Shown one piece after another: positions 2,614 to 19,179 of a DNA stretch of 64,000 bases. Origin of the DNA: Sulfurimonas sp. Its GTDB lineage: Bacteria > Campylobacterota > Campylobacteria > Campylobacterales > Sulfurimonadaceae. The translations under genes were made by a program, and so were the position numbers. Position 1 is the first letter of the stretch. Each line of letters starts with the position of its first letter. Under the pieces are notes generated by a model that was not told the DNA's origin, made no database searches, and saw nothing but the letters and a program-made list of their open reading frames with translations. Where the stretch lies: contig NZ_CP093396.1 in NCBI RefSeq assembly GCF_029027405.1, positions 1-64,000 on the forward strand. The letters run 5' to 3'.

Positions 2614-4734
2614 TTAGAAACGACCTCTGATACCAGTAAAATAATATCTTCCAACATTTGAACCTAGTACATCTTCAACCGTAGCATCTCCTACATTGTT
2701 AATTCCGCCGTAAAATTCAAAACTTTTATTTACCTTGTAGCCAATAGTCAAATCAACTATATTAATTGCATCTGTTGTGGCATCTGGATTGGCCGTTTGA
2801 GTAGGAGCTCCTCTATTTATGACCTCAGTGTAGTGTTGTTGTCCTATATATTTACCCACAATACCAAGATTAAGTGCTTTTGTTGCTTGGTAATCAAAGC
2901 TAAGCATTAAGCTTCTTTCTGGATTAAATTCTAAATCTTTTTTTGTATCTTCATTTTCTGTTTTAAGTTCACTCCAAAAGAATTTTGAATTTAAATTATC
3001 TAATATCTTATAGCCAAAAGACAGCTCAAGTCCTTTTGTGTTTGCATCTGATACATTTTCAAAGGTTGTTATAGCGCCGTTTTGAACTTGCTCTATTTTA
3101 TTTTTAATTTGATTATAAAAAACGACTAAATCATAACTTAGTTTAGAATTGCGTCCACCAAGTCCTAGCTCAAAAGCGTTCGTAGCTTCTGGTTTTAAAT
3201 CATAGCCAACTACATCAGCACCTCGTTGAGGACCATTTGGTGTGTTCATATTTATATACATCTCTCTGATGTCTGGTGTACGAAAACCTTGTGCAAAATT
3301 TGCTCTTACTTTTGCTAGTTTATCAAAAGCATAGATTCCTCCAACACGAGCAGTAGGTCTGTTTTGGGCATTACTGATATCTTCATATCTTGCACCAAGA
3401 ATAGTGTTGAACTTGTCTGTGACTTCCCATTCATCTTGAAGATAAACTGATGAATAATTAACTTTTTTCTCGCTTATTCCTACATTATTTGTAAATACAG
3501 AAGATTTTCTTTTCTCATTTCTATATTCGACACCACCTGTAAGTAGATGAGACTCAGTAGCTGCGTATGTAGCGGAAGCTTCATAAACAGTAATATCAAC
3601 ATCAGCATTCATTGCGGCATTTGCAGAAGCATCCTCGTTGGCATAGTTATAATCAGCCCAATATTTCAGGGTTGTTGTATTTCTTTTCTTATAATTAGAA
3701 TTATAAATACGAGTTTTGATGCTTAAATCATCAGTTGGAGCATAAACAATATCAACACTTAAATCAAGACGGTTGTTTTCATCATGTGAGTTGACCGGAG
3801 CATTCCAAGTTGGAATATTTTTACCTGCATTCGGTCCCCCTGCAAATTTAAAATTTGATGGATGAACATAACCTATATAAACTCCATCTCTTTCTTCCTT
3901 AAAGTAGTTTACATCTACTCTAGCTGTAAAAGTAGAAGTAAAATCATAGGAGAGGCTTGTACCTAAAGTATAGATTGTACTCTCTTCTCTATAGGTTGTA
4001 TCAACACCATAGCTGTCCTTAATACTTGTCATATCAGGCAGAATAGCAAAAGGTGTTTGAGATGGTTTTCTTCCCATAGGAACCCAAGTATCAGCCACTT
4101 CTGTTTGAGTGTATGGGTCAGTAGTTGTTAAACCTGCATACGCACTATATCCAAAAGCTTTTTCTTTACCTTGGATGCTAAGAGATAGATTTATATTTTG
4201 TGCATCACTATCTTTGTTCATGCCATATCTAGCTCCTACATCAATTTTCATTTCATTAGTTGGTCTTTTTGTAATGATATTGATAACACCACCAACTGCA
4301 TCTGCACCATAAAGTGAACTCATTGGCCCCTTTACAATTTCAATTCTTTGAACTATAGATGCTGGAATACGCTCTAAATCATAAGGATTTTTTACCTCTC
4401 CAGAAAGTCTTCTACCATCAAGTAAAAATAGTGTTCCATTTGCACCCATACCACGAATAGAGATAGAAGACTTGCTTTTGGAACTTGAACTTGGAAAAGT
4501 CCCATATTGCATAGTTAACCCTGGAGTCATTTCTAAAATATCTTTTAGACTAGCCGCTCCCATCTTTTCTATCTCTTTTTGTGTAACAACTTCAACAGTA
4601 GCTGCTACCCCATCTATGCTTTTTTGAGTCTTAGTCGCTATACTCACAACCTCAATAGCATTCATATTTTCCGCGGCACTAGCAGAATAGCTCATTAGCA
4701 ATGCTAATGATGCGCTAATTGTTATTTTCTTCAT
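2614..4734 (-). CDS. TonB-dependent outer-membrane receptor (duplicate 2)
   Basis: A 706-residue receptor paralogous to the 731-residue copy immediately downstream. The domain order is the same: signal peptide, IEVVSI TonB-box-like segment, plug domain with a conserved DGRR loop, and a C-terminal barrel ending GRF. It has a single copy of the barrel segment that is doubled in receptor 1, so it probably keeps the ancestral length. The region upstream (4741-4877) is shared divergently with the RND gene and is rich in GATAAT-like hexamers, which suggests iron control. Differences between the copies cluster in surface-loop segments, for example around SQTPFAILPD versus SQTPIPGLVPD. Ligand not predictable from sequence. 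Confidence 0.95.
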   Translation of the reverse strand: MKKITISASLALLMSYSASAAENMNAIEVVSIATKTQKSIDGVAATVEVVTQKEIEKMGAASLKDILEMTPGLTMQYGTFPSSSSKSKSSISIRGMGANGTLFLLDGRRLSGEVKNPYDLERIPASIVQRIEIVKGPMSSLYGADAVGGVINIITKRPTNEMKIDVGARYGMNKDSDAQNINLSLSIQGKEKAFGYSAYAGLTTTDPYTQTEVADTWVPMGRKPSQTPFAILPDMTSIKDSYGVDTTYREESTIYTLGTSLSYDFTSTFTARVDVNYFKEERDGVYIGYVHPSNFKFAGGPNAGKNIPTWNAPVNSHDENNRLDLSVDIVYAPTDDLSIKTRIYNSNYKKRNTTTLKYWADYNYANEDASANAAMNADVDITVYEASATYAATESHLLTGGVEYRNEKRKSSVFTNNVGISEKKVNYSSVYLQDEWEVTDKFNTILGARYEDISNAQNRPTARVGGIYAFDKLAKVRANFAQGFRTPDIREMYINMNTPNGPQRGADVVGYDLKPEATNAFELGLGGRNSKLSYDLVVFYNQIKNKIEQVQNGAITTFENVSDANTKGLELSFGYKILDNLNSKFFWSELKTENEDTKKDLEFNPERSLMLSFDYQATKALNLGIVGKYIGQQHYTEVINRGAPTQTANPDATTDAINIVDLTIGYKVNKSFEFYGGINNVGDATVEDVLGSNVGRYYFTGIRGRF

Positions 4735-4740
4735 TTTTTC

Positions 4741-4877
4741 CCTTTAATAAGTTAATATTAATATTGATAACCAAAATTAATAATTATTAAAATTGTAGGT
4801 TATTTTAACTTAATCAATAGTTAAAATGATATTAATTATTAATATTATTAAAAGCTATATTTTTATATTATTTCAAA
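4741..4877. promoter_or_regulatory. Divergent promoter region with Fur-box-like repeats
   Basis: This intergenic region between the receptor 2 start and the RND start is almost entirely A/T and contains several GATAAT/ATTATT-type hexamers, for example around 4768-4790 and 4827-4850. Arrays of such hexamers are what Fur binds in known Fur boxes. No single perfect 19-bp palindrome is present, so this is a weaker call than the sites at 7977 and 14621. Confidence 0.5.
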
Positions 4878-7800
4878 ATGATAAAAAAATTCATAAGTAT
4901 TAGTATTGAAAATAAGTCTCTAAATCATATACTTTTCATATTTTTACTATTGCTTGCATTTATTTCTTATAATAAGATTCCAAAAGAAATGTTTCCACCA
5001 AATACACTCGATATGATAAGTGTAAAAGGACATTACAGTGGTGCAAACAGCACAATACTAGATAAACTAATTGTTCAAGATATCGAAAGTATTCTACAAA
5101 ATAATCAAAATTTAACTGATATACAAACTATTATTACAAATGGTACATTTCATATAAATGCCGAGATAAAAGATAAAGCTTCAAAACAACAAATAGTCAA
5201 TAATATAAAAAACTCTATTGAAAATTTAAAACAAGATTTGCCAAAAGACATGGATATACCAACTGTTGATATCTTGGAAAGTTATTTTCCTCTTATCAAT
5301 ATATCTATATCTTCTAACACAAATAAGGAGTATATTGAAGTTGCAAAAGATTTAACTGAAGATATAAAAAAATTAAAAAATCTCTATAGTGTGACTCTTG
5401 ATGGAGATTATAGCTCTTTACTTGTTATTTCATTAAATCAACAAAAACTCATTGCTTATGGTATATCAAATGAGAAAGCCTACAATGCTCTCATGGGTTT
5501 ATACTCTCTGTATCCCATAGGTTCTATTAGTTCTAAAAAACAGAAATACTATGTTGAAAGTAAAAATGATAATATAGATATAAATACGCTTCTTGAGTCT
5601 GAAATAAAAATAGATGATAAATTGATATATGTAAAAAATATTGCAGATATAAAGTATGACTATGAAAACAGAGATGTTATAACTCGTACAGATGCCGCCC
5701 GTAGTGTAATAATCAATATAAAAAAAGCAAAACTTGGTGATAGTATAGAACTCTCTAAAAAAATTACAAAAATTATCACTACATATCAAGATAACTATCA
5801 AGATATTGATTTTAAAGTTTTAAGTGACAGCTCTTTTTGGATAAAAACAAGACTCAATACAATTGGCTCAAATATTATAATTGGTTTAATTTTACTCTTT
5901 TTTTCCATCTGGTTTTTTATCTCTTTAAAGATTGCTATTGTTGTTATACTTGGAATTCCTGTAAGTTTTGCTTTTGGATTGATAGGTTTAGATTTTTTTG
6001 GAGGATCTTTAAATACTCTTTCTATGATAGGAGTTTTATTAAGTCTTGGGATACTTGTAGATGAAGCAATTGTTGTGAGTGAAAATATTCATCGTCACTC
6101 CAACATGGGCAAAAGTATTAAACAAGCTTGTATAGATGGAACTAATGAGATGATGCCAATTCTCTTTGCATCTATGCTTACAACCATCATAGCTTTTTTA
6201 CCTCTAGCAATGCTTTCTGGAGGACTTGGAGTTTTTATAAAAATAATTCCTTTGATTGTAATTATTTTAGTGATTAGCTCATTTGTTGAGAGTTTTATAT
6301 TTTTACCACTGCACTATAAGGAGTTGTCGTTTAAGTTCTTAAATGATAGAAGTGGCGGAATCAGGGAAAGAATGTGGAATAAGTTAAGTGTATTTTATAT
6401 GAATTCACTATCTTTTTTCATAAAAAGACGATATATATGGGGTTTTGCTATTGTCTTTTTTACTCTTTTTGCAACATATAATTTGGCAAAGTCAAGTGTA
6501 TTTCAACTATTCCCAGAGTTTGATGCTATGACTATAAATCTAATTGGTAAAGTTAAAAATGGTGCTATCAACTATACACTTCAAGAAACAAAAGAATTGG
6601 AAAAGATTTTAATCAAAGAGTTGGATTCAGAAAATGTAGCTTCAATTTCTACGATAATAGGCATGAATAGTGATGGTCGTTCCATGCATGAAAAAGGTAA
6701 TAATCTTTTTACATTAACAATCAATCTAAAACAAAAAAAACATGAAGATTTTTTTAATAGAGTTATAAATCCAATATTCGCACCATATAAAGAGCCAGAA
6801 AACTCCAATAGAACAAGAATTCTTTATGCAAAAGAGATTCAACACAAGATAGAATCTTTAATACAAAAACATAATCTTAAAGAGAATTTTTTGGAGTTTA
6901 GTATAAATATACCTCAAACAGGTGTTGTAAAAAATGATGTGGAGATATCTCTTTCACATAAAGATAATATAAAGATTAAGAACTCCTTGGAGAGTTTGCA
7001 AGAAGCTATAAAAAAGATACAAGGCGTTCATAGTATTAAAGATGATATGAAATATGATGAGTTAAAAGCAGAAATTACATTAAATACATTTGGAAATAGT
7101 CTTGGATTTACCCAAAAAATAATTATTTCAAAAGTGAGAAACTTTATCTCGATGCAAAAACTCTCAAAAATTGTAGATACAAATGCTGAGCTTATAGAGC
7201 TAAGAGTAGATTTCTCAAATCATGATAATTTATACTCGCTTTATAATTTATCTTTAGAGGTACCAAATCAAAGCTACAATGTGTGTTTAAAAGATATAGC
7301 AATAGTAAGTTTTTCTAAAGATATTACTACAATAAAAAAAGATGATTTACAAAAGATATTTACACTGAGTGCTAGTTTTGATAAAGATAAAATCTCTTCT
7401 AGAGTTTTTTATCAAAAGCTCAAACCGACAATTCAAATGATTAAAAAAAGTGGAGTAGAAGTTTTTATAAAAGGAGAACAAAAAACTAATAATCAAATAA
7501 AAAAAGATATTTTTGTATCTTTATTATTCGCTTTATTTGGAATTTTAATTATTTTAACATGGTTATTTTCTTCACTTGGACTCTCTTTCTTCGCCCTGAG
7601 TGTTATACCGCTTTCTATTTTAGGTGTGCTTATAGGTCACAAAATTATGGGTATGGATATCTCTTTCTCATCTTTACTTGGATTTGTTGGACTCATAGGT
7701 ATTGTAATTAACGACACCCTTATAATGCTAAGTATGATTAAAAAATCAAAAAATACAGATGAATTACTACAAAATGCTTCCCTGCGAGTAAGACCAATAC

Positions 7801-7982
7801 TCCTTACTTCTATTACTACAATAGTTGGATTAAGCACATTAATATTCTTTGCATCTGGAGAATCTCTATTGATGCAACCTTTAGCAGTTAGTATTGGCTT
7901 TGGACTTATCTACGCAACTATAATTAATTTATATTATCTACCTATTCTATACAGTTTTAAAAACAGATACAACAACCGATAA
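4878..7982 (+). CDS. RND-superfamily efflux permease without an adjacent adaptor or outer-membrane partner
   Basis: A 1034-residue inner-membrane transporter of the AcrB/HAE type. It has one N-terminal membrane helix, a large periplasmic domain (about 35-330), helices 2-6 (about 335-480), a second periplasmic domain and C-terminal helices. The TM4 proton-relay motif reads LVDEAIVV (Asp395-Glu396), where AcrB has Asp-Asp. In the TM10 region the sequence is VINDTLIM, without the Lys found in AcrB. The usual membrane-fusion protein and outer-membrane channel genes are absent on both sides. It is divergent from the iron-linked receptor pair and ends on a Fur-box-like palindrome. A role in exporting a metallophore or a toxic tetrapyrrole is only a guess. 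Confidence 0.9.
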   Translation: MIKKFISISIENKSLNHILFIFLLLLAFISYNKIPKEMFPPNTLDMISVKGHYSGANSTILDKLIVQDIESILQNNQNLTDIQTIITNGTFHINAEIKDKASKQQIVNNIKNSIENLKQDLPKDMDIPTVDILESYFPLINISISSNTNKEYIEVAKDLTEDIKKLKNLYSVTLDGDYSSLLVISLNQQKLIAYGISNEKAYNALMGLYSLYPIGSISSKKQKYYVESKNDNIDINTLLESEIKIDDKLIYVKNIADIKYDYENRDVITRTDAARSVIINIKKAKLGDSIELSKKITKIITTYQDNYQDIDFKVLSDSSFWIKTRLNTIGSNIIIGLILLFFSIWFFISLKIAIVVILGIPVSFAFGLIGLDFFGGSLNTLSMIGVLLSLGILVDEAIVVSENIHRHSNMGKSIKQACIDGTNEMMPILFASMLTTIIAFLPLAMLSGGLGVFIKIIPLIVIILVISSFVESFIFLPLHYKELSFKFLNDRSGGIRERMWNKLSVFYMNSLSFFIKRRYIWGFAIVFFTLFATYNLAKSSVFQLFPEFDAMTINLIGKVKNGAINYTLQETKELEKILIKELDSENVASISTIIGMNSDGRSMHEKGNNLFTLTINLKQKKHEDFFNRVINPIFAPYKEPENSNRTRILYAKEIQHKIESLIQKHNLKENFLEFSINIPQTGVVKNDVEISLSHKDNIKIKNSLESLQEAIKKIQGVHSIKDDMKYDELKAEITLNTFGNSLGFTQKIIISKVRNFISMQKLSKIVDTNAELIELRVDFSNHDNLYSLYNLSLEVPNQSYNVCLKDIAIVSFSKDITTIKKDDLQKIFTLSASFDKDKISSRVFYQKLKPTIQMIKKSGVEVFIKGEQKTNNQIKKDIFVSLLFALFGILIILTWLFSSLGLSFFALSVIPLSILGVLIGHKIMGMDISFSSLLGFVGLIGIVINDTLIMLSMIKKSKNTDELLQNASLRVRPILLTSITTIVGLSTLIFFASGESLLMQPLAVSIGFGLIYATIINLYYLPILYSFKNRYNNR

Positions 7983-8029: not shown

Positions 8030-8050
8030 GATAATAATAGTTATTATTAA
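8030..8050. promoter_or_regulatory. Second Fur-box-like site before the ExbB/CobN operon
   Basis: An inverted ATAATAA/TTATTAT element lies 26-46 bp before the start at 8076, so it probably covers the promoter. Together with the site at 7977 it suggests repression by Fur in iron-replete cells. Confidence 0.55.
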
Positions 8051-8075: not shown

Positions 8076-8564
8076 ATGATTGATACTACAATGTACACAG
8101 TTTCACAACTGTTCTTAACTCCAACACTAGTTTTAATATTACTAATGTTTGTTTATTCGTTTATAGCCTTAGGCTCATTTATTTATGAGGGTATATCTCG
8201 TAGAAAAAATATTATGCAGTTAAATACAAATGGGGCATATCCTATTATACGACACTATAGCATTGACAAGCAGATAAGTATGGAAAAGTTAGAACTTTTT
8301 GCATTTAAAAAACTAGAAAATGTACGTAATGTTTCAAGAATCGCTCCAATGATGGGTCTTATCGCAACTCTTATTCCTCTTGGACCTGCACTTAAAGCTT
8401 TAACAGATGGAAATATTCAAGGTATGAGTGATGGATTGATTTTAGCTTTTTCTGGAGTAACGCTAGGGCTGATTGCAGCTTCACTTACTTACTGGATAGG
8501 CAATATTAAAAAGAGATGGTACGCTGATGAGTTGCATATCATTGAAGTTGCAAAGGCATCTTAA
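8076..8564 (+). CDS. MotA/TolQ/ExbB-family proton channel paired with the CobN-like protein
   Basis: A 162-residue inner-membrane protein with three predicted helices (about 12-36, 108-128 and 128-150). The segment from APMMGLIATLIPLG through the last helix (SGVTLGLIAASLTYW) is the MotA/TolQ/ExbB signature. ExbB-family proteins form a pentameric stator through which protons drive an ExbD-type partner. This gene is separate from the canonical exbB at 13701. It overlaps the DUF2149 gene by one base (TAATG), and that gene overlaps the CobN-like gene, so the three are translationally coupled. The same trio (channel, DUF2149, CobN-like) is known from Bacteroidetes hmu loci. Its role as a motor for the CobN-like protein is inferred from that context. 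Confidence 0.85.
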   Translation: MIDTTMYTVSQLFLTPTLVLILLMFVYSFIALGSFIYEGISRRKNIMQLNTNGAYPIIRHYSIDKQISMEKLELFAFKKLENVRNVSRIAPMMGLIATLIPLGPALKALTDGNIQGMSDGLILAFSGVTLGLIAASLTYWIGNIKKRWYADELHIIEVAKAS

Positions 8565-8890
8565 TGGCAGTTAGATTATTAAACGAGGATGATGACAACA
8601 ATCCAATGAATTCTGTCATAAACTTGATAGATATATTTTTAGTTGTTATTGCCGCTTTGCTTATTATCATATCTCAAAACCCACTGAATCCATTTAGTAG
8701 TGATGATGTAACAGTTATAAAAAATGCAGGAAAGAAAAATATGGAAATTATGGTAAAAAAAGGTAAAGAGATAAAAACCTTTAAATCTAAAGGAAATATT
8801 GGCGAAGGTAATGGAAAGAAAGCTGGTATTTCATACAAGATGGAAGATGGCTCATTTGTGTATGTTCCAGAGAAGGATATGAAGATATGA
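8564..8890 (+). CDS. DUF2149 protein, ExbD-like partner
   Basis: A 108-residue protein with one N-terminal membrane helix (about 20-40) and a small C-terminal domain, probably periplasmic. The helix begins NLIDIFLVV. Asp23 sits where ExbD/TolR proteins carry their proton-binding aspartate (compare PMVDIIFILL in the exbD at 14155), so it looks like an ExbD analogue with a much shorter periplasmic part. It overlaps both neighbours (TAATG upstream, ATGA downstream). DUF2149 proteins are typically found beside CobN-like genes; direct functional data are not known to me. Confidence 0.75.
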   Translation: MAVRLLNEDDDNNPMNSVINLIDIFLVVIAALLIIISQNPLNPFSSDDVTVIKNAGKKNMEIMVKKGKEIKTFKSKGNIGEGNGKKAGISYKMEDGSFVYVPEKDMKI

Positions 8891-11800
8891 TGCGCTGTTT
8901 ATTATTAGCACTTTTGTTATTTATGCCATTTGTTCAAGCGAATGAAGTGGTGAATATCAAAAGTGATATTCTCATCTTGTCAACAAGTGTGGGTAAAAAT
9001 CGCCAAGAGAGAAAAGCGGAACTTTTAAAAGAACAACTTGCTCCATATAGTATATCTTCAGAGATTATATTTAATCTAGATGAAGACAAAGCAAAAGAAG
9101 CCTTTAAAGATAGAAGATTAGTAATCATAGATGCGTTAGATGGTAAACACGGTGTTGCTTCACTTTTACGCAAATATGAAGATATTTTAGAAGATACTAA
9201 AACACCATATATTGCTCTAAAGCTGGAGTATGAAAAGTTTGGCAATATGGATGAAGAGTTTGCATCTACGATTTTAGCTTATTTTTCACAAGCAGGAAAA
9301 TATAATTATGCTCAAGGAGCCGCCTTTTTGGCAAGAGAATATTTTGCAATAAAAATAAATCCTCTACCTGTTCACAAAATGAGTGATACGGGAATATATC
9401 ATCCAAATAAAGGAAAGGGTACTTTTAAAACTTTAGATGAATACTGGAAAACTTTAAGTGAAAAAGAAAAAAATAGTCCTATGGTTGGGATTGTTATACA
9501 TAAAGAAAACATATCTTCTGATGATACTGTAATTATAGATATGGCAATTAAAAAACTTACAAGTGCAGGTATTACTCCTATCGCTTTTTACACAAAAGTT
9601 GGTGAAGAAGATTTTGCAGGAGAGCGTTTTTTTACAAAAGATTCTAAACAACTTATAGATTTGATAATCTCTTTTCAGGTTATGATAATGGATCAAGAAA
9701 AGCTTAGAAAGGATTATGCAAGAATAGGTCTAAAAGTTATGCAGGGTATCATTTATCGCCAAGGTTCACAAGAAGCATGGGAGCTAGATAAACAGGGCGT
9801 TTCTGCGAACTGGATACCGATGACTTATATTATTCCAGAACACATAGGTTATACCGATCAGTTAACAGTTGGAGCCTTAGACCCAATTACGAAAAAAACA
9901 ACACCTATATCTTATCAGTTAGATATGTTTATGAAAATAGCTATAAATAACTCTAAGCTAAAACAAAAGCAAAACAAAGAGAAAAATATAGCTATTTTTT
10001 ACTACAACTATCCTCCAGGTGTAAATAACTTCGGTGCTTCATATATGCAGTTTCCAGAATCTTTGTCTAGTATTTTATCTAGTATGAAAAAAGCAGGGTA
10101 TCAGACGCAAAGTGAGAGTAGTGATTACTTTGTCAAGACCCTTCCTAAGTCTATGGCATATTATTATAAAGATAGTGTTTATAATGAAAAATATGCTGAT
10201 TTATTACCTTATGATGTTTATTATGAGTGGTATTTAACACTTCCACAAGATACTCGAAATCAGATAAATAAAAAATGGGGACATCCAAGAAAAAGTAAAT
10301 TTCTTCATACTAAAGATGGAAAAAAATACTTCATTATCCCAAGACTGAAAAAAGGAAATGTTACTTTACTTCCACAACCTAGTCGCTCAAATATTGGGCA
10401 AGATAGAATGGGAAGAAAAATTTATGAGGGAAGAATCTATCATGATACTGCCTCGCCAGTACCCCATCATTACCTTGCAGTATATCTATATGTAAGACAG
10501 CAAAATGATGCGATAGTGCATCTCGGTACACACGGAACTTATGAGTGGACTTATGGAAAAGAGAGAGGTCTTAGCATCTATGATTCACCTCTTCTTAGTG
10601 TTGGTGCATTACCAAACATATATCCATATATTACGAATAATCTTGCAGAGGGCATCCAAGCAAAAAGACGCGGTAGAGCAACATTAATTTCTCATCAAAC
10701 ACCGCCATTTGGTGTTAGTGGAACTTACAAAGAGTTAAGTGATATTATGGATTTGATAAACCAGTATAAGCAGAGTAGTGATGCTGTAAAACAAAATAAT
10801 AAAAAGCAACTCATCTCTTTGACTATAAAGATGAACTTACATAAAGATATGAAATATACTAAAGAGATGATGGAAAATGAAACAGATGTTTTTGTGTCCG
10901 ATTTGTATGATTATCTAAATGGTTTAAGTTCAACATTAACACCTCTTGGTATGCACAGATATGGCTCATATCCAAAAGATGACCATATGGTACAAACACT
11001 TATGTCAATGCTAGGGGATACTTTTATAAAAAGTGTTGAAGGTGAAAATGGACTAGCAGGGATAAACTACAAAGATTTAAATAAAACAAAAGTTTATAAG
11101 ATGCTACAAAAGTATGTTATAGAAAATAAAAGTCTGGATTCGCTAGATGGCGGCTTAAAACCATTTATACAAACAGCGAAAGTTTATAGAGATAATTTTG
11201 TAAACAATAAAGAGATGCAAAACTTACTAAAAGCTTTAGATGCAGGTTATATAGAGACAAGCGTAGGAGGCGACCCTATACGAAGCCCTGAATCTATCCC
11301 TACTGGTATGAATATGTACAGCTTTGACCCCCAGCGTATTCCAACGAAAGCTGCCTATAAAACTGGTGCTAAAATTATGAAAGATTATATTGAAAATTAT
11401 TATGCAAAATATGGGAAATATCCTCAAAAGATAACTTTTAATTTATGGTCACTTGAAACTATGCGTCATTTTGGTGTACTAGAATCCCAAATACTTTATG
11501 CGATGGGGATTAAACCTATCTGGAGTGAAGGTGGGATAAGTGATGAGATGGTGCAAAGTATGGCAAAAGGAATGTTAGCAGGGATGCTTGGCGAAGATTT
11601 TGCGAAATGGATTGCTTCATTTGTTACAGTCCAGAGAATTAAAATGTTTGATTTTTTAATGCCCCAAAAGATGAAAGATATGTTTTACGCTGGATTAAAA
11701 ATGGGTCGTGGAAAAATAGATGGTGTTGAAATTATCTCGTACAGTGATTTAAAGAGACCTCGTATAGATGTAGTAATACAAGCTACAGGTCTTTATCGTG

Positions 11801-12984
11801 ATACTTTTCCTAATGTTATGAGAGTGATTAATGAAGGTGTTGAGAAGATTGCAGCTCTCAAAGAAGAGCATAATTATGTTCGACAACATGCTTTATCTTT
11901 GAAAAAAATGCTCTTAGATAAAGGATATGATGAAAAAGAAGCTCAGTATCTTTCAACCATCCGTATGTTTTCTGCCGCACAAGGTAAATATGGAAATGGC
12001 GTTTCAGGCACTGTGTCTGTTTCTGAGACTTGGGATAAAGAAACAAGAATCGCTGAGAACTATATCCGAACTTCAGGGTATATTTATGGTTCTGATGAGT
12101 CTAGATGGGGAACAAGATTAAAAGATGTAGACATGTTTGCACAAAATTTAAAAGGTACAGATGCTGTAATGTTTAGTCGTACCTCAAACTTGTATGGGAT
12201 GATGACATCTGATGACCCTTATGGATATTTTGGCTCAATTGCATTGGCTATTCGTCATTTAGATGGTAAAAGTCCACAGATGCTAATCTCAAATCTAAGA
12301 GATCCAAATAATGCAAAGATGCAAGATGTTAGTGAATTTATTTCTAATGAATTGCGTTCAAGATACTACAACCCTAAATGGATAAAAGAGATGCAAGATA
12401 GTGGCTATAGTGGTGCTACTCGTGTTTTAGATGTAGTAAATAATTTTTGGGGATGGCAGGTGGTTTATCCCGAGGGTGTTCGTTCAGACCAATGGCAAGA
12501 ATTTGTAGAGATTTACTATGATGATAAGTATGATATGAACATGGATGAATGGTTTGAAAAAACAAATCCTACTGCTCGTGCGCAAATGGCAGAAGTGATG
12601 CTAGAAGCTGTTAGAAAGGGCTATTTTCAAACAGATGCTAAAACAATTAAAAAGCTTGTGGAGACTTTAGAAGAAATATCAAAAAAATACAATCATAAAA
12701 CTCTAAATAACAAACTCAAAGATTTTATTAAGGCCCAAAAAGCGGCAGGATATGGCTTGAGTATACCTATTGCCACTCCTGTTGCAAATGCTCTAAAAGC
12801 ACAGAGTAAGCCAGTTGTAAAAGTAAAACCTAAAATTAAAGGACAAAAACTTGAAGAAGTAAAAAAAGATATAAAAGAAAAAGTTAACTATGACACTTAT
12901 GCTATGTGGATGTTTATTTTATTTTTAGTCTTTATCGGAGCTTTTTTAGAGATGCGAAATAACAAAAAAGAAAGTTTAAAGTAA
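8887..12984 (+). CDS. Periplasmic, membrane-anchored CobN/HmuS-like chelatase
   Basis: A 1365-residue protein of the CobN/BchH large-subunit chelatase family. The family signature HLGTHGTYEW begins near His545, and further conserved blocks follow through about residue 1200. Unlike the cytosolic CobN of cobalamin synthesis it has a signal peptide (cleavage near FVQA-N, residue 19), a Lys-rich linker (about 1300-1335) and a single C-terminal helix (about 1338-1356), so the chelatase body should sit in the periplasm. No CobS/CobT or ChlI/ChlD AAA+ partners and no corrin genes occur in the window. Instead it is translationally coupled to an ExbB-like channel and DUF2149. This architecture matches HmuS of Bacteroidetes haem-uptake loci, which has been linked to removal of iron from haem. 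Metal extraction from an imported tetrapyrrole is the best inference; the substrate is unproven. Confidence 0.85.
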   Translation: MMRCLLLALLLFMPFVQANEVVNIKSDILILSTSVGKNRQERKAELLKEQLAPYSISSEIIFNLDEDKAKEAFKDRRLVIIDALDGKHGVASLLRKYEDILEDTKTPYIALKLEYEKFGNMDEEFASTILAYFSQAGKYNYAQGAAFLAREYFAIKINPLPVHKMSDTGIYHPNKGKGTFKTLDEYWKTLSEKEKNSPMVGIVIHKENISSDDTVIIDMAIKKLTSAGITPIAFYTKVGEEDFAGERFFTKDSKQLIDLIISFQVMIMDQEKLRKDYARIGLKVMQGIIYRQGSQEAWELDKQGVSANWIPMTYIIPEHIGYTDQLTVGALDPITKKTTPISYQLDMFMKIAINNSKLKQKQNKEKNIAIFYYNYPPGVNNFGASYMQFPESLSSILSSMKKAGYQTQSESSDYFVKTLPKSMAYYYKDSVYNEKYADLLPYDVYYEWYLTLPQDTRNQINKKWGHPRKSKFLHTKDGKKYFIIPRLKKGNVTLLPQPSRSNIGQDRMGRKIYEGRIYHDTASPVPHHYLAVYLYVRQQNDAIVHLGTHGTYEWTYGKERGLSIYDSPLLSVGALPNIYPYITNNLAEGIQAKRRGRATLISHQTPPFGVSGTYKELSDIMDLINQYKQSSDAVKQNNKKQLISLTIKMNLHKDMKYTKEMMENETDVFVSDLYDYLNGLSSTLTPLGMHRYGSYPKDDHMVQTLMSMLGDTFIKSVEGENGLAGINYKDLNKTKVYKMLQKYVIENKSLDSLDGGLKPFIQTAKVYRDNFVNNKEMQNLLKALDAGYIETSVGGDPIRSPESIPTGMNMYSFDPQRIPTKAAYKTGAKIMKDYIENYYAKYGKYPQKITFNLWSLETMRHFGVLESQILYAMGIKPIWSEGGISDEMVQSMAKGMLAGMLGEDFAKWIASFVTVQRIKMFDFLMPQKMKDMFYAGLKMGRGKIDGVEIISYSDLKRPRIDVVIQATGLYRDTFPNVMRVINEGVEKIAALKEEHNYVRQHALSLKKMLLDKGYDEKEAQYLSTIRMFSAAQGKYGNGVSGTVSVSETWDKETRIAENYIRTSGYIYGSDESRWGTRLKDVDMFAQNLKGTDAVMFSRTSNLYGMMTSDDPYGYFGSIALAIRHLDGKSPQMLISNLRDPNNAKMQDVSEFISNELRSRYYNPKWIKEMQDSGYSGATRVLDVVNNFWGWQVVYPEGVRSDQWQEFVEIYYDDKYDMNMDEWFEKTNPTARAQMAEVMLEAVRKGYFQTDAKTIKKLVETLEEISKKYNHKTLNNKLKDFIKAQKAAGYGLSIPIATPVANALKAQSKPVVKVKPKIKGQKLEEVKKDIKEKVNYDTYAMWMFILFLVFIGAFLEMRNNKKESLK

Positions 12985-12989
12985 AAATT

Positions 12990-13697
12990 ATGATAAAAAA
13001 GAGTGAAGATTTTAGTTTTTTAATTGGTGCAATTATCACTACTCTCGTGATGGCATCACTCTTTTTTGCTAAAGATATTAAAAAGTTTGAGACTCTTAGT
13101 GAAAGAGCCTCTAAAACAGAGTCCATACACTATGTAACCATAGTAGATGTAACAAAGAAAGTAGAAACAAAGAAATACAAAAAACCTATAAAAAAACCAC
13201 AAAAAAGAATAAAAAAAGAAGTAGTTAAAGTGGTTAAAAAGTTAATAAAAAAACCAAAGCTTATAGATGAAGCTGCTCAAATAAAAGAAAAAATAGTACA
13301 AAAACAGAAGTTATTTGAAAAAGAATTAGAAGAACAACTTTTACAAGAAGAGTTAGCAAGGCAAAAAGAGTTTAGAAAAAGACAGTTAGCTAAAAAGAAC
13401 CTTCTGGAAAAAGAAAAAGATATATATTTATCGGAGTTAGCAGCGTGGATAAAACAACATTTAAAATACCCACGACATGCAAGAAGAATGAATCAACAAG
13501 GCGTTGTCAAAATCTCCTTTATTATTACAAAACATGGACACATAGAGTCAGTAAAGATAGATTCACCTTGTCCATATAAGAGGCTAAATAAGGCGGCAAA
13601 GATGCTTTTAGTAGAACTAAATCGTTTTAAGCCACTGCCTGAAAATTTAGATAAATGGGAATTAAATGTGCCAATAATATATGCACTAAAGGATTAA
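12990..13697 (+). CDS. tonB: TonB energy-transducing protein
   Basis: A 235-residue protein with an N-terminal cytoplasmic stub and helix (about 8-27), then a Lys-rich and charged coiled region (about 55-145) that would span the periplasm. A C-terminal TonB domain follows (about 150-235: YLSELAAWIKQHLKYPRHAR, then VVKISFIITKHG). The usual Pro-Lys/Pro-Glu repeats are replaced by KKP/KKI-type repeats and a long charged helix. It starts 5 bp after the CobN-like stop and is followed by exbB and exbD, so it would energise the receptors of this locus. Confidence 0.9.
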   Translation: MIKKSEDFSFLIGAIITTLVMASLFFAKDIKKFETLSERASKTESIHYVTIVDVTKKVETKKYKKPIKKPQKRIKKEVVKVVKKLIKKPKLIDEAAQIKEKIVQKQKLFEKELEEQLLQEELARQKEFRKRQLAKKNLLEKEKDIYLSELAAWIKQHLKYPRHARRMNQQGVVKISFIITKHGHIESVKIDSPCPYKRLNKAAKMLLVELNRFKPLPENLDKWELNVPIIYALKD

Positions 13698-13700
13698 AAA

Positions 13701-14168
13701 ATGCAATACTATTTAGATAAAGGTGGAGTAATTATGTATATATTATTCGCCATGGCAATAGTAGGAACGATAATAATAATATGGAAAATAGCTTCTATTA
13801 CGCTTTTTAAATTTCGTACAAGAAATATTGATTTACCATCAGATAAAGCAGAATTAAGAGCAGCTGCTTTAATTGCACCACTTGAGATGGGGCTTACAAC
13901 TCTTAAGATTGTATCAACGATATCACCACTTTTAGGGCTTCTTGGCACGGTTCTTGGGATATTTATGGCATTTGAAGGGATTATGGTGCATGGACTTGGT
14001 GATCCAACACAGTTTGCAAAAGGTATCTCAACTGCACTAATCACAACGGTTGGTGGATTAGTTGTAGCGATTCCAGCTTATATATTTTACAATTATTTTA
14101 TCGGTGAATTAGATAAAACAGAGCAGATATTAATACAAAAAATAGCAGGAATTTATGAAGCGTCGTGA
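13701..14168 (+). CDS. exbB: ExbB biopolymer transport proton channel
   Basis: A 155-residue inner-membrane protein with three helices. The segment STISPLLGLLGTVLGIFMAF and the later GISTALITTVGGLVVAIPAY are the classic ExbB/TolQ motifs. It begins 3 bp after tonB and overlaps exbD by 14 bp. It is a second, distinct ExbB in the same locus; the one at 8076 is much less canonical. Confidence 0.93.
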   Translation: MQYYLDKGGVIMYILFAMAIVGTIIIIWKIASITLFKFRTRNIDLPSDKAELRAAALIAPLEMGLTTLKIVSTISPLLGLLGTVLGIFMAFEGIMVHGLGDPTQFAKGISTALITTVGGLVVAIPAYIFYNYFIGELDKTEQILIQKIAGIYEAS

Positions 14169-14538
14169 ACCCTTAGGGTTAGATATGACCCCTATGGTTG
14201 ATATTATATTTATTTTATTGATTTTTTTCCTAGTGAGTTCTGTTTTTAAAAAAGAGGAACTCGCTCTTATGCTTGAACTTCCTAACGCGGGAGCAAGTAA
14301 AGAAGTACAAGAGAAAAAAACTCTTAGTATTGAATTATCAAAAGACTCACTTGCAGTTAATGGAGATAAAGTAAGTTATGAAGAGATAATGTTTAAGGTA
14401 CTGCCTTTAGCGAAAGATGGAAAGATGATAATGTTTTATATTGATAAAGATGTCCCATATTCTCGAGTAGTTCGTATTTTAGACTTGTTAAAAACACATT
14501 CTTTAAATAAGTTGGCATTGATAACAAAACAAGAGTAA
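14155..14538 (+). CDS. exbD: ExbD biopolymer transport protein
   Basis: A 127-residue protein with a short cytoplasmic N-terminus, one helix starting DMTPMVDIIFILLIFFLV (Asp16 is the proton-binding residue of the family) and a periplasmic ExbD/TolR domain. It completes the tonB-exbB-exbD unit. The next gene is a receptor with its own Fur-box-like promoter 120 bp downstream. Confidence 0.93.
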   Translation: MKRREPLGLDMTPMVDIIFILLIFFLVSSVFKKEELALMLELPNAGASKEVQEKKTLSIELSKDSLAVNGDKVSYEEIMFKVLPLAKDGKMIMFYIDKDVPYSRVVRILDLLKTHSLNKLALITKQE

Positions 14539-14620: not shown

Positions 14621-14639
14621 GATAATGCTTATTGTTATC
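14621..14639. promoter_or_regulatory. Fur box before receptor 3
   Basis: GATAATGCTTATTGTTATC matches 15 of 19 positions of the classical Fur consensus. It lies 20-38 bp before the start codon of the receptor at 14659. This is the best Fur-like site in the window. Confidence 0.75.
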
Positions 14640-14658: not shown

Positions 14659-16593
14659 GTGAAAAATAAAATATATTTGAGTTTATTGGTAAGTGTTATG
14701 TTAATAAATTCTATAAATGCATCTGATGATTTAACAGATGTTATTGTAACAGCAAAAACACAAAGAACAGCTTTAGATACAGCAGGAAGTTTTTCTGTGA
14801 TTACAGCAGAAGATATTAAAAAGACAGGAGCATCATCGGTACAAGAAATATTAGAAGGTGTTGTTGGTTTAAATATGGGTATGAACGATGCCTCAATAAA
14901 TGGCAGGCAAAATATTAGTATTCGTGGTACTGATTCTAAAGATACGCTTATCTTAGTAGATGGAGAGAGGATTTCTGGAAGTGATGCGCAGATTGGTCAT
15001 AGTGATTTTCAGTATAACTGGATACCAATTAATGCCATTTCCAAGATTGAAGTGATTCGTGGACCAATGAGTGCTATTTATGGTTCAAGTGCTATTGGCG
15101 GGGTTATTAATATAATAACTAAAAAACCAGTAGAAAAAATTCAAGGAGATATAGCAGTTGAAGGTGGAGATGCCTCAAGAGATGGAGGAAAAAATATAGA
15201 TTTTTCAGTTTCTGCTGGTGGTAAAATCACAGATAGTTTTTCAATTATTGGATATGCAAGTTCTAAAATAGTAGAGCCTGAAGATGCAGATGATACTACA
15301 GAAGTGGAGGGTAAAAAAATTCAAAATTTGATGTTAAAAGCTTGGTATGATATAGATGCTACTCAGAAAATAACAGCGTTTGCAATTTTAGGAAATGAAA
15401 AGAGAAAGACAGATGTGCATGCAGAATTATATGAAATAAAGAAAGCTCACTATTCACTTGGTTATCAAAAAGATTTTAATGATATTAGCTTAAATGTAAA
15501 ATATTACAATAATACATCAGATACTCATACAGATCAGTTTGAATATACTCATAAAATGCGTGATGATACTCTAAATGCTGAACTGAATATTGCTTCATTT
15601 GATAATAATTTTATAGTTTTTGGCGGAGAGTATAGAAAAGAAAAGTATAGAAAAAAATATGATGATGCGGCAGATGACACAAGCAAAGGCTTTGAAGATT
15701 CAATAAATTACGCTTCTGTATATTTGCAAGATGAAATAGAAATAGGTAGTAGTACAATCCTTACCATAGGTGCTAGATATGACAAGCATGAGAGATTTGG
15801 TGGAGAACTATCACCAAAGGCAAACCTTGTTTATAAGCTGAGTGACAATGGCAGACTTAAGGCAGGATACGGACATGGATTTAGTGCGCCTACAGTTACA
15901 CAGACTTCAGATAAGTATGGTGTTGCAATTCCAGTAAAATTTTATTCAGCAGGACCTCCATTTTATGGAATGCCTAAAATTTTTCACAGATTTCATGGTA
16001 ATGACAATCTAAAACCTGAAAAATCTGATACATTTGAGATAGGATATGATTATGAAAAAGACCAGATGACATTTGTAGCAACTTATTTTCATACTGAATT
16101 AACAGATCTTATAGACACGCTTTATACAGGAGATACAATGGCTGGACCAATGACTTACAGAGAGTATCTTTACTCAAATGTAGGAAAAGCTAGAATAGAT
16201 GGTTTGGAGTTAGAGTTTACTCAAAATAATATTTCTGAAATTGTTGATGTTAGCCTTAACTATACATACCTTAACACTGAAAATAAAGATACAAAAAAGG
16301 AGCTACATAACCGACCTGCTCATACAGCTAACTTAAAACTTTCAGTTGATCTTCCATGGGAGATTGGTAGTAATTTTAGAGTTAATTATGTAGGAAATCA
16401 AAAAGTTGCTGATGGCGATACTCTAGATGCGTATACTACTTTTGGTTTACAGTTTTCTAAAGAGTTTGTTCAAGACCTAACATTAAGTACAGGTGCAGAA
16501 AATTTAAGTGATGTAAAGCATATCGGTGATGGAGATAATAGATACTATATTAGAGGACGCTATATGTATGCTAGACTAAATTACTCATTTTAA
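14659..16593 (+). CDS. TonB-dependent receptor 3 of the CobN/TonB locus
   Basis: A 644-residue outer-membrane receptor. It starts at GTG 14659, 5 nt after an AAGGA site. A signal peptide (to about residue 22) is followed by a TonB-box-like DVIVTAK, a plug with ISIRGTDSKDTLILVDGER and VIRGPMSAIYGSSAIGGVIN, and a barrel ending in NYSF. It is shorter than the duplicated pair at 173-4734 and clearly a different subfamily. Its position between exbD and the ABC importer suggests it is the outer-membrane entry point for the substrate handled by this locus. Haem is a candidate ligand, but I see no decisive FRAP/NPNL-type haem-receptor motif. Confidence 0.93.
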   Translation: MKNKIYLSLLVSVMLINSINASDDLTDVIVTAKTQRTALDTAGSFSVITAEDIKKTGASSVQEILEGVVGLNMGMNDASINGRQNISIRGTDSKDTLILVDGERISGSDAQIGHSDFQYNWIPINAISKIEVIRGPMSAIYGSSAIGGVINIITKKPVEKIQGDIAVEGGDASRDGGKNIDFSVSAGGKITDSFSIIGYASSKIVEPEDADDTTEVEGKKIQNLMLKAWYDIDATQKITAFAILGNEKRKTDVHAELYEIKKAHYSLGYQKDFNDISLNVKYYNNTSDTHTDQFEYTHKMRDDTLNAELNIASFDNNFIVFGGEYRKEKYRKKYDDAADDTSKGFEDSINYASVYLQDEIEIGSSTILTIGARYDKHERFGGELSPKANLVYKLSDNGRLKAGYGHGFSAPTVTQTSDKYGVAIPVKFYSAGPPFYGMPKIFHRFHGNDNLKPEKSDTFEIGYDYEKDQMTFVATYFHTELTDLIDTLYTGDTMAGPMTYREYLYSNVGKARIDGLELEFTQNNISEIVDVSLNYTYLNTENKDTKKELHNRPAHTANLKLSVDLPWEIGSNFRVNYVGNQKVADGDTLDAYTTFGLQFSKEFVQDLTLSTGAENLSDVKHIGDGDNRYYIRGRYMYARLNYSF

Positions 16594-16625
16594 AGAAAAA
16601 AACTCAAATGTTGATTAAAGTCAAT

Positions 16626-16644: not shown

Positions 16645-16681
16645 TTATTATTTGAGTATTAATTCACATAGGAGATATTTA

Positions 16682-17671
16682 ATGAAAAATTTCATATATA
16701 CGGGGTTGTTAGCAATATTACTTGCAATGACCTCATTACACGCTGATGCAAAGGTGGACAAAATAGTTATTGCAGGACCTTTTGCATCTGTATCCCATCC
16801 AATACTACACATGATACAAAGAGATGCTCTTAAAGATGTAGCAAAAAAAGTTGAGTTTAGGCTATGGAAAAATCCTGATGAACTTAGAGCTATTGTTATA
16901 AAAGGAGATGTTGATTTTGTAGCGATTCCTACAAATACAGCAGCTATTTTAAACAACAAAGGTGTTGATGTTAAGCTTTTAAATGTTTCTGTTTGGGGAA
17001 TACTTGGCATGATAAGTCGAGACAACAACCTGAAAACTTTAAAAGATTTTAAAGGTAAAAAAATTGCTGTTCCTTTTCGTGCTGATATGCCAGACATAGT
17101 TTTTAAGCAACTTCTAAAAAAACAAGGTCTTGACCCTAAAAAAGATTTTGAGTTAATCTATGTAGCTAGTCCTATAGATGCTATGCAGATGCTAATAATG
17201 AGAAGAATAGACCATTCTCTTCTTGCTGAACCTGCGATTTCAGTGGCTCTTCGTAAAACAAAATCATTCCCTATTAGTATAGTTGCTCCTGATTTATATA
17301 GAAGTGTAGACATACAAGATGAGTGGGCAAAAGTTTTTAATACTGATAGAAATATTCCTCAGGCTGGTATGGCTGTCCTTGGTAGAATGAAAGATGAAAA
17401 GATTATTTCTCGATTTATGCAAGAGTATGATAAATCATTAGCATGGTACATGTCTCATCCAAAAGAGGCAGGAGTATTAATTGCAGACAAAATAAATCTT
17501 CTTTCAGAAGATGGCGTCGCTGATTCTATAGCTCATATTAATATGAAGAGTATTTCAGCTCCAGATGCAAAAGAAAAAATAGAATTTTTCTTTAATATTT
17601 TAAAAGAAGAAGACCCTAAAAGTATTGGTGGCAAACTTCCTCAAGATAGCTTTTATTACAAAGCTCAGTAG
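16682..17671 (+). CDS. Periplasmic NMT1/THI5-like (NitT/TauT-type) ABC substrate-binding protein
   Basis: A protein of 329 residues from the ATG at 16682, preferred over the in-frame ATG at 16652. It has AGGAG 8 nt upstream and begins directly with a signal peptide (MKNFIYTGLLAILLAM, cleavage near SLHADA). The mature part is the SsuA/THI5-type fold: KIVIAGPFASVSHPIL, then a two-lobe body with LKDFKGKKIAVPFRADMPD. The family binds sulfonates, thiamin precursors, riboflavin and other small molecules, so the fold does not fix the ligand. It is followed without a gap by permease and ATPase genes. The Fur-like site suggests an iron-related ligand. Confidence 0.88.
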   Translation: MKNFIYTGLLAILLAMTSLHADAKVDKIVIAGPFASVSHPILHMIQRDALKDVAKKVEFRLWKNPDELRAIVIKGDVDFVAIPTNTAAILNNKGVDVKLLNVSVWGILGMISRDNNLKTLKDFKGKKIAVPFRADMPDIVFKQLLKKQGLDPKKDFELIYVASPIDAMQMLIMRRIDHSLLAEPAISVALRKTKSFPISIVAPDLYRSVDIQDEWAKVFNTDRNIPQAGMAVLGRMKDEKIISRFMQEYDKSLAWYMSHPKEAGVLIADKINLLSEDGVADSIAHINMKSISAPDAKEKIEFFFNILKEEDPKSIGGKLPQDSFYYKAQ

Positions 17672-18454
17672 ATGAAATTTGCTCTAAAAATACTTAAAGA
17701 TTTTCCAGCTTACTTGTGGAGTGGTTGGGGGTCGATAGCATCTATACTTCTTTTTATCGCTGTTTGGGATATGGGAAATCAAATCTATGGAGATTTAGTT
17801 CTTCCTTCTCCACTAGAAACATTCCAAACACTTTTTGTAATGCTTGGTGATGAAGAAATCTTAGAACAGATAAACATAACATTGTATCGTGCTTCAGCTG
17901 GCTTTGGAATCTCTTTAGTTTTTGGTTCTGCTCTTGGACTTTTAGCTGGGTTTTTTGTAACAGCATCTATGATGAGTCGTCCTATCGTTACCATCTTAGT
18001 TGGAATGCCTCCAATCGCTTGGATAGTTTTAGCGATGATATGGTTTGGTATGGGAGATGAAACTGTTATATTTACGGTCATTGTTGCATCTTTTCCTATC
18101 ATCTTTGTAGGAGCACTTCAAGGAACAAGAACACTTGATGGTGACTTAAAAGAGATGGCAGATAGTTTTAATCTGCCTTGGCATATGAAGTTTTTAGATG
18201 TATATTTTCCTCATATATTTTCTTATGTTTTTCCTGCTTGGGTAAGTGCTCTTGGTATGGCATGGAAGATAGTTGTAATGGCAGAACTTTTAGCTACAAG
18301 TGATGGCATCGGAGCAACTTTAGCGGTTGCAAGAAGTCAGTTAGATACGCCAACAGCACTTGCTCTTGTAGTTATTATGATAGGTTCACTTATGTTTATA
18401 GAGTATATAGTGCTAGAGCCAATCAAAAGAGAGGTTGAGTTATGGAGAAGTTAG
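17672..18454 (+). CDS. NitT/TauT-type ABC transporter permease
   Basis: A 260-residue inner-membrane permease of the SsuC/TauC family with about six helices. The EAA-type coupling loop is near residues 165-185 (LKEMADSFNLPWHMKF) and a conserved GMAWKIVVMAELL segment follows. It starts immediately after the binding-protein stop codon and overlaps the ATPase gene by 13 bp, so the three form one transporter. Confidence 0.92.
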   Translation: MKFALKILKDFPAYLWSGWGSIASILLFIAVWDMGNQIYGDLVLPSPLETFQTLFVMLGDEEILEQINITLYRASAGFGISLVFGSALGLLAGFFVTASMMSRPIVTILVGMPPIAWIVLAMIWFGMGDETVIFTVIVASFPIIFVGALQGTRTLDGDLKEMADSFNLPWHMKFLDVYFPHIFSYVFPAWVSALGMAWKIVVMAELLATSDGIGATLAVARSQLDTPTALALVVIMIGSLMFIEYIVLEPIKREVELWRS

Positions 18455-19179
18455 AAGTAAAAAATTTAAATCATCATTTTGGTTTTACAGAGATATTAAG
18501 AGATATTAATTTTACTCTAAATAAAGGAGAAGTTCTTTCTATCGTTGGACCTAGTGGCGGTGGGAAAACTACACTTTTACATCTTTGTGCAAACTTGTTA
18601 GATGTAGAAGAAGGAAGTGTGATTAACACATTTACGAGCAGTGCTTTTGCTTTTCAAGATGCAAGACTTCTTCCTTGGAAAAATGTTATAGATAACATAG
18701 CTTTAGGTTTATTAGCATCTGGAGTAAATAAAAAAGAAGCGATTAAACAATCCTGTGAGATTGCTCTAAAGTTTGGTCTTGAAGAGAGTGATTTTGAAAA
18801 GTTTCCAAAAGATTTAAGTGGTGGGATGCGTCAACGAGTTAGTTTTGCAAGAGCTTTAGTTGTAAAACCATCTTTACTTTTTTTAGATGAGCCATTTTCT
18901 GCTTTAGACATAGGTTTAAAAAAAGAACTACAAGCCATACTTATAGATATGATTTCTAAAAAAGAGATAAGTATACTATTTATTACACATGATTTGATGG
19001 AAGCTATACGATTAAGTGATGAAATCCTTCTTTTAAAAGCTGACCCTGGGCATATAATTAAAAAGTTTTCTTATGAACTTTCTCAAAATGAAAGAGACGA
19101 TAAATATGTTTATAATGAGAGTGCAAAGATACTTCAAGATGAAGAAATTATAGATACATTTGAACTGGAGTTAAAGTAA
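18442..19179 (+). CDS. NitT/TauT-type ABC transporter ATP-binding protein
   Basis: A 245-residue ATPase. Walker A is GPSGGGKTT, the Q-loop is AFQDARLLPW, the signature is LSGGMRQR, Walker B is LLFLDEPFSALD and the switch His lies in LFITHD. All catalytic motifs are intact. It overlaps the permease upstream and the nnrS-like gene downstream (TAATG), so the operon continues into NnrS. Confidence 0.94.
   Translation: MEKLEVKNLNHHFGFTEILRDINFTLNKGEVLSIVGPSGGGKTTLLHLCANLLDVEEGSVINTFTSSAFAFQDARLLPWKNVIDNIALGLLASGVNKKEAIKQSCEIALKFGLEESDFEKFPKDLSGGMRQRVSFARALVVKPSLLFLDEPFSALDIGLKKELQAILIDMISKKEISILFITHDLMEAIRLSDEILLLKADPGHIIKKFSYELSQNERDDKYVYNESAKILQDEEIIDTFELELK

Follow-up and report, generated by a model that had tools for sequence, protein, structure and literature searches.

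Gene trio and its products

The window analysed here is a stretch of 64,000 nucleotides (positions 1 to 64,000 of contig NZ_CP093396.1, assembly GCF_029027405.1) from Sulfurimonas sp., and the system in question is a trio of genes at 8076-12984 encoding an exported CobN-like protein together with a candidate proton motor of its own. The three open reading frames (ORFs) lie on the plus strand with successive overlaps of 1 and 4 nucleotides. The first (8076-8564, 162 amino acids) encodes a channel subunit of the ExbB/TolQ/MotA family, putatively that of a dedicated motor, and matches MotA_ExbB (PF01618) with 32 bits, above the cut-off. The second (8564-8890, 108 amino acids) matches DUF2149 (PF09919) with 97 bits and has a single transmembrane (TM) segment carrying Asp23 and a small periplasmic beta domain, which makes it a putative ExbD-like partner. 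The third (8887-12984, 1365 amino acids) is a BtuS-like class I chelatase subunit with a CobN-Mg_chel match (PF02514) of 943 bits. An earlier note on this DNA had named the same three proteins, the last with a signal peptide and an anchor, and the ORFs and Pfam matches confirm this. It had also stated that no AAA+ partner is present, which holds for CobS, CobT and BchI/ChlI, none of which gave a profile match in the whole 2.83 Mb single-contig genome; ChlD was not searched for.

The N-terminal signal peptide of the CobN-like protein can be read directly (MMRCLLLALLLFMPFVQA followed by NE), as can a C-terminal TM segment with a positive tail (...FLEMRNNKKESLK), and the hydrophobicity maxima are 1.94 at the N-terminus and 2.05 at the C-terminus. 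The body of the protein should therefore lie in the periplasm. The AlphaFold model of residues 60-1259 (predicted local distance difference test score, pLDDT, 89) is a complete class I chelatase, with CobN as the best structural match (7c6o; Z 48.5, 1062 residues, root mean square deviation 3.0) followed by ChlH (4zhj; Z 46.9) and HmuS (9p4s; Z 41.8). Signal peptide, anchor and fold matches together support a periplasmic, anchored class I chelatase, as the earlier note had it. The score against the NCBIfam equivalog for cobaltochelatase CobN is 1147.8, below the cut-off of 1248, and CobS and CobT are, as mentioned, without a match.

The features of HmuS were tested as defined in PMC12583661. 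The catalytic H-x-G-x-H-G motif is present as HLGTHG (residues 545-550; 10519-10536, +), in which His549 corresponds to the catalytic His538 of HmuS, and Glu577 of HmuS aligns with Glu588. Ser1014 and Ser1199 of HmuS are kept, and the cleft residues retained in the window protein are His549, Glu588, Ser855 and Ser1100. Ser1067, Gln1198 and Trp1202 are replaced by Thr, Thr and Tyr. The sequence LSLDHxxEFMGG of HmuS, with His1209 and Glu1212, is not found; the window protein reads TSDDPYGYFGS, and its domain V motif SDDPYGYFG (residues 1108-1116; 12208-12234, +) has Asp1110 and Gly1113 in their place. The site-1 haem ligand His254 (HGR motif) is absent: at its position the window protein has VMI and relatives have IML or similar. 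For the region of the site-1 ligand Met79 the head domain of the window protein aligns unreliably to HmuS. The methionine-rich insertion in domain IV is also missing, with about 117 residues between the aligned blocks compared with about 286 in HmuS.

In a tree constructed with FastTree the window protein belongs to a clade of 87 members spread over Campylobacterota and Pseudomonadota (support 0.987) with HmuS outside it, and the Campylobacterota form one clade of 18 (support 1.0). The node uniting all DUF2149-associated proteins is weak (0.44). The residue changes, the absent insertion and the position in the tree rule out that the window protein is HmuS, with which the earlier note had equated it, and it is a relative but a different protein that at most shares the working principle of HmuS. 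Of the names in the literature, BtuS suits the protein best. The BtuS group is characterised by a signal peptide, a membrane anchor and the lack of a CobS/CobT match, all of which are found here, and has been predicted to serve metalloporphyrin salvage (PMC6460266).

Association with DUF2149

Among 397 Campylobacterota genomes CobN was over the cut-off in 9, and DUF2149 was over the cut-off in exactly those 9 (Fisher p ~1.6e-18), so the pairing is not due to chance. Relatives were collected by scanning one genome per species, which gave 569 stretches encoding CobN-family relatives, and 78 loci were kept from Campylobacterota and from Alpha-, Beta- and Gammaproteobacteria. The usual gene order is either TonB-dependent receptor, CobN, ExbB and DUF2149 or ExbB, DUF2149, CobN and TonB-dependent receptor. 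The motif table comprises 103 proteins, namely 95 membrane-type CobN rows and 8 cytosolic CobN/BchH rows. DUF2149 lies within the locus in 84 of the 95, and neither DUF2149 nor a clear C-terminal helix was found in any of the 8. The 11 membrane-type rows lacking DUF2149 are mostly contig ends or second copies where the genome holds a full set; in locus L110 it sits on another contig, and L108 and L144 fall under none of these cases. Both the co-occurrence in nine of nine genomes and the count of 84 in 95 tie the CobN-like gene genetically to its own ExbB/DUF2149 pair, in agreement with the earlier note.

As the loci were found with a CobN query, they do not measure how frequent DUF2149 is without CobN, and the evidence from the DUF2149 side consists of the count in 397 genomes and 11 plasmid matches. 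At the level of the whole genome, matches to both DUF2149 and CobN occur in Methanosarcina acetivorans, an archaeon with no outer membrane. DUF2149 follows CobN in L032/L033 and L143, with no receptor found in the stretch examined. L032 and L033, from two other Campylobacterota genomes, encode a third class of CobN (HVGRHSTYEF, DNNDTFDYLGG) that is accompanied by an ExbB and a DUF2149 of its own, with no receptor nearby. CobN loci on archaeal plasmids are canonical cob clusters with no DUF2149, and viral contigs contained no relatives. No natural fusions of motor and enzyme were seen among the relatives; where GC-rich loci showed long ORFs that overlap, these were taken as spurious upstream extensions.

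Candidate motor and tether

The membrane residue Asp23 of DUF2149 is conserved in all 75 homologues, strictly in the context N-[LIVMT]-[LIVAM]-D in 73 and as NAVD in the remaining 2. Thr98 in the second TM segment of ExbB is invariant (76 of 76 homologues). The ExbB thus carries the Thr of ExbB/TolQ/MotA channels and DUF2149 the single TM segment with an essential Asp of ExbD/TolR, and the invariance of both residues is what a proton channel would be expected to show. The stronger statement that DUF2149 is a proven ExbD was dropped, owing to a weak model and a profile alignment confined to the TM region.

The 87 C-terminal tails of the CobN-like proteins share a Pro/Ala-rich linker, followed first by the motif (V/I)xGxxL (Gly 97%, Leu 92%) and then by a helix in which one Gly is nearly invariant (97%). 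In the window protein the docking-like motif is KIKGQKLE (residues 1316-1323; 12832-12855, +), ahead of the TM segment. Cytosolic CobN lacks this tail, which by its sequence pattern looks like a tether of the TonB type. In L030, L039 and L047 a second CobN-like copy carries the tether motif but has no second motor nearby, as if one motor served two enzymes.

Regulation and metal

A pattern scan placed Fur-like boxes ahead of the trio (8030-8048) and ahead of a TonB-dependent receptor downstream (14621-14639). The four distinct Fur-like sites around the operon (4828, 8030, 14621 and 16620/16626) account for 5 of the 6 best matches in the 64 kb, a placement with a probability of 8.7e-9 in a calculation that ignores the AT-rich character of intergenic DNA. 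Two of the 20 best matches in the genome are found at this operon and others near flavodoxin and a Ton-type gene, and the genome-wide placement figure is still 4e-4 after a tenfold correction. Of 58 other loci, all outside Campylobacterota, 18 contain a Fur-like match that reaches the 5% level of the locus itself, compared with 2.9 expected (p 2.5e-10), and two Zur patterns were near expectation (2 and 5 loci). Zinc control of the window operon was rejected because the Zur patterns are not enriched in these loci and the window lacks the palindrome that lies near znuA in the same genome (AAATGCGACTAAGTTGCATTT). Cobalamin control was likewise rejected, as no Rfam match to a cobalamin riboswitch was found in the first 25 kb.

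Neighbours in the loci of relatives include the haem-binding ChaN (9 loci), imelysin/DHOR/DUF1513 proteins and flavodoxin. The iron context proposed earlier is borne out by the Fur-like boxes at the operon and their enrichment in the 58 loci, and iron is well supported as the metal. Haem as the fixed substrate was downgraded to a merely plausible one, because the adjacent receptor most resembles the siderophore receptors CirA and FepA.

Other members of the family are regulated differently. In two Pseudomonas loci (L158/L159) a Zur box one mismatch from the consensus lies near the receptor start, which matches the published induction of PA1922-PA1925 by zinc starvation, and a homologue in Trichlorobacter is found under tandem cobalamin riboswitches. 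The cleft reads DDPFQ or similar in Fur-type loci and DHPFE in Zur-type loci and some others. The His/Glu and Asp/Gln clefts tend to track Zur-like (L158, L159, L103, L140) and Fur-like (L061, L062) promoter sites, even within Pseudomonas. In Runella (L114, 3590-11624) the trio and a receptor interrupt a maturation cluster for NiFe-hydrogenase, with hypF on one side and hypC on the other, which hints at nickel.

Neighbouring genes

Directly after the trio, and absent from the earlier note, lie a complete TonB system and a receptor, all on the plus strand: TonB (12990-13697), a canonical ExbB (13701-14168) and a canonical ExbD (14155-14538), identified by ORF and profile match, and a TonB-dependent receptor (14659-16593) whose closest solved relatives are CirA and FepA. 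This receptor scores 201 bits with CirA over its full length, followed by the FepA type, and 75 bits with ShuA over the plug region. Its resemblance to haem receptors is mainly over the plug, where BtuB-like scores are also found.

Upstream, an RND-family transporter (4878-7982, +) with the Fur-like site at 4828 has no adaptor beside it and is a repeated neighbour of the trio in Campylobacterota; in Cupriavidus the corresponding position is taken by an RND transporter together with an adaptor. Downstream, an NMT1/SsuA-like substrate-binding protein (16652-17671, +), with the Fur-like site at 16620, is the first of an ATP-binding cassette (ABC) set at 16652-19179 and is followed by an NnrS-family membrane protein (19179-20426, +; ORF and profile match). 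This arrangement of an SsuABC/NMT1-like ABC transporter and an NnrS-family protein (16652-20426) recurs beside the system in Campylobacterota and Proteobacteria (L027, L028, L064, L065, L082, L141). Two very similar TonB-dependent receptors are found in tandem at 173-2368 and 2614-4734, the first with a short internal duplication (TTLKYWADYNYANEDAS and TTLEYFANFNYADEDAS). Between CobN and the receptor, L025, L027, L030, L039 and L042 encode a DUF4198 protein together with a small, conserved protein that is exported (HTPxxSCxDEGDGTxTCEGGFSDGSSAGG).

Proposed mechanism and alternatives

The locus is interpreted as a Fur-controlled periplasmic dechelatase for an iron complex with its own, separate ExbB/DUF2149 proton motor, a reading to which we give about an even chance. 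Powered by TonB-ExbB-ExbD (12990-14538), the TonB-dependent receptor would import into the periplasm an iron complex, for which an iron tetrapyrrole is the likeliest candidate. There the anchored CobN/BtuS-like protein would hold the complex in the class I cleft, with His549 and Glu588 on one wall and Asp1109 and Asp1110 opposite, and the released iron would proceed to uptake across the inner membrane. The second ExbB with DUF2149 may form a separate proton-driven motor, in which Asp23 and Thr98 would take part, and this motor would act on the CobN-like protein through the Pro/Ala-rich linker, the (V/I)xGxxL motif and the glycine-marked C-terminal helix. It would then replace the CobS/CobT or ChlI/ChlD ATPases of the cytosolic relatives and use membrane energy instead of ATP. 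Gene order, topology, fold, placement in the family, residue changes, Fur-like sites, the tie to DUF2149 and the missing CobS/CobT/BchI matches are established computationally. On the genetic evidence, drive of the chelatase by a proton motor is the reading with the most support; contact between motor and enzyme, transmission of force, a reaction in the direction of metal removal, a tetrapyrrole as the ligand and its proton-driven opening are what we infer.

The ligand might instead be a non-haem compound, such as a catecholate or another ferric siderophore. The CirA-like receptor, the Fur-like control common to siderophore uptake and the missing haem-site residues of HmuS speak for this, and it is nevertheless rather unlikely since all solved relatives of the fold handle tetrapyrroles, the cleft residues are retained, ChaN neighbours occur in nine relatives and the Trichlorobacter version is under B12 riboswitches. 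Uptake or remodelling of cobalt or corrinoids (B12) would fit the CobN family, the name BtuS, the BtuB-like plug scores and the homologue on pGLOV01 of Trichlorobacter, where the riboswitches stand beside corrinoid genes. With Fur-like boxes here and no riboswitch in the first 25 kb, and with Trichlorobacter outside the well-supported window clade, a B12 system is very improbable.

Another alternative is that ExbB/DUF2149 is a further energiser of the TonB type for an outer-membrane receptor and that the CobN-like enzyme needs no motor. HmuU/HmuV have been assigned to powering HmuR (PMC12583661), PA1924 has been treated as an ExbD for PA1922 (PMC4542158), a TonB-dependent receptor is usually adjacent and HmuS is active in vitro without a motor. 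The pair need not energise a receptor, however, and is unlikely to do so here because a full TonB-ExbB-ExbD set lies directly downstream, as one also does beside the Trichlorobacter trio; DUF2149 also accompanies CobN in the loci without a detected receptor and occurs in an archaeon, and the conserved tether sits on CobN itself. A protein that only binds the complex and hands it over, with ExbB/DUF2149 aiding its passage across the inner membrane, would agree with the proposal that HmuTUV forms a complex for haem transport at the inner membrane (PMC13227078), but is quite improbable given the strictly kept equivalent of the catalytic His538 and a trio with no HmuT-like permease.

Several observations weigh against the motor-driven dechelatase of an iron complex. 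The model of DUF2149 is weak (pLDDT 71) with no fold match, and the hhalign probability against ExbD is 10% with only the TM region and its Asp aligned. The tether is a sequence pattern shared by relatives, which suggests contact between motor and enzyme but does not prove it, and the membrane-type CobN of L144 has no motor nearby. HmuS purified without the membrane segments can dechelate haem with NADH (PMC12583661), and a btuS1 btuS2 double mutant of B. fragilis still releases protoporphyrin IX (PMC6460266). The receptor beside the trio is CirA/FepA-like and not clearly a haem receptor, and membership of the family does not reveal the metal, because some relatives follow a zinc, B12 or possibly nickel logic.

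As a tentative generalisation, somewhat more likely wrong than right, the exported CobN-like enzymes could represent a third way of powering class I chelatases, by mechanical coupling to a dedicated ExbB/DUF2149 proton motor through a TonB-like tether. They would strip metals in the periplasm in general, with the choice of iron, zinc, corrinoid cobalt or perhaps nickel depending on the lineage and showing in the regulator sites and in the switch between Asp/Gln and His/Glu clefts.

Comparison with known systems

The family itself is known, as BtuS/HmuS of Bacteroidota and PA1922-PA1925 of Pseudomonas have been published, and direct proof that HmuS dechelates haem dates only from 2025. Published readings place the ExbB/DUF2149 genes beside HmuS with the outer-membrane receptor or with inner-membrane transport. 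In the literature searched there is no description of the system in Campylobacterota, as the earlier note had also held of the mechanism, and no proposal of ExbB/DUF2149 as the drive of the chelatase. If a dedicated motor drives the enzyme, it would be the equivalent, run on protons, of the AAA+ motors of other chelatases, and it would account for metal-starvation operons across Pseudomonadota that are poorly understood, such as PA1922-PA1925. The window locus separates two motors in one operon.

The system in the window is a real, conserved and iron-controlled one of the BtuS/HmuS kind. With HmuS/BtuS of Bacteroidota (PDB 9d26/9p4s) it shares the class I fold, export and a C-terminal anchor, ExbB and DUF2149 neighbours, the lack of CobS/CobT, an iron-starvation context and the equivalents of His538 and Glu577 (His549 and Glu588). 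Unlike HmuS, it has no HmuY or HmuT neighbour, and the (V/I)xGxxL tether of the window group is not obvious in HmuS. Cytosolic CobN and ChlH/BchH have the same overall fold and cleft His but lack a signal peptide and an anchor, and they come with ATPase partners and biosynthetic neighbours. The CobN cluster on pGLOV01 of Trichlorobacter lovleyi is similar in its TonB-dependent receptor, ExbB, DUF2149, CobN and separate ExbB-ExbD-TonB, but differs in its cobalamin riboswitches, a DUF2162 gene, adjacent corrinoid genes and a position outside the window clade. PA1922-PA1925 of Pseudomonas aeruginosa (TonB-dependent receptor, CobN-like, ExbD-like and hypothetical protein) have the same set of components, and the Pseudomonas loci L158/L159 have the order TonB-dependent receptor, CobN, ExbB and DUF2149 with the tether motif, as in the window group, but differ in the Zur box and zinc control, the DHPFE variant of the active site and an identity of about 30% to the window protein.

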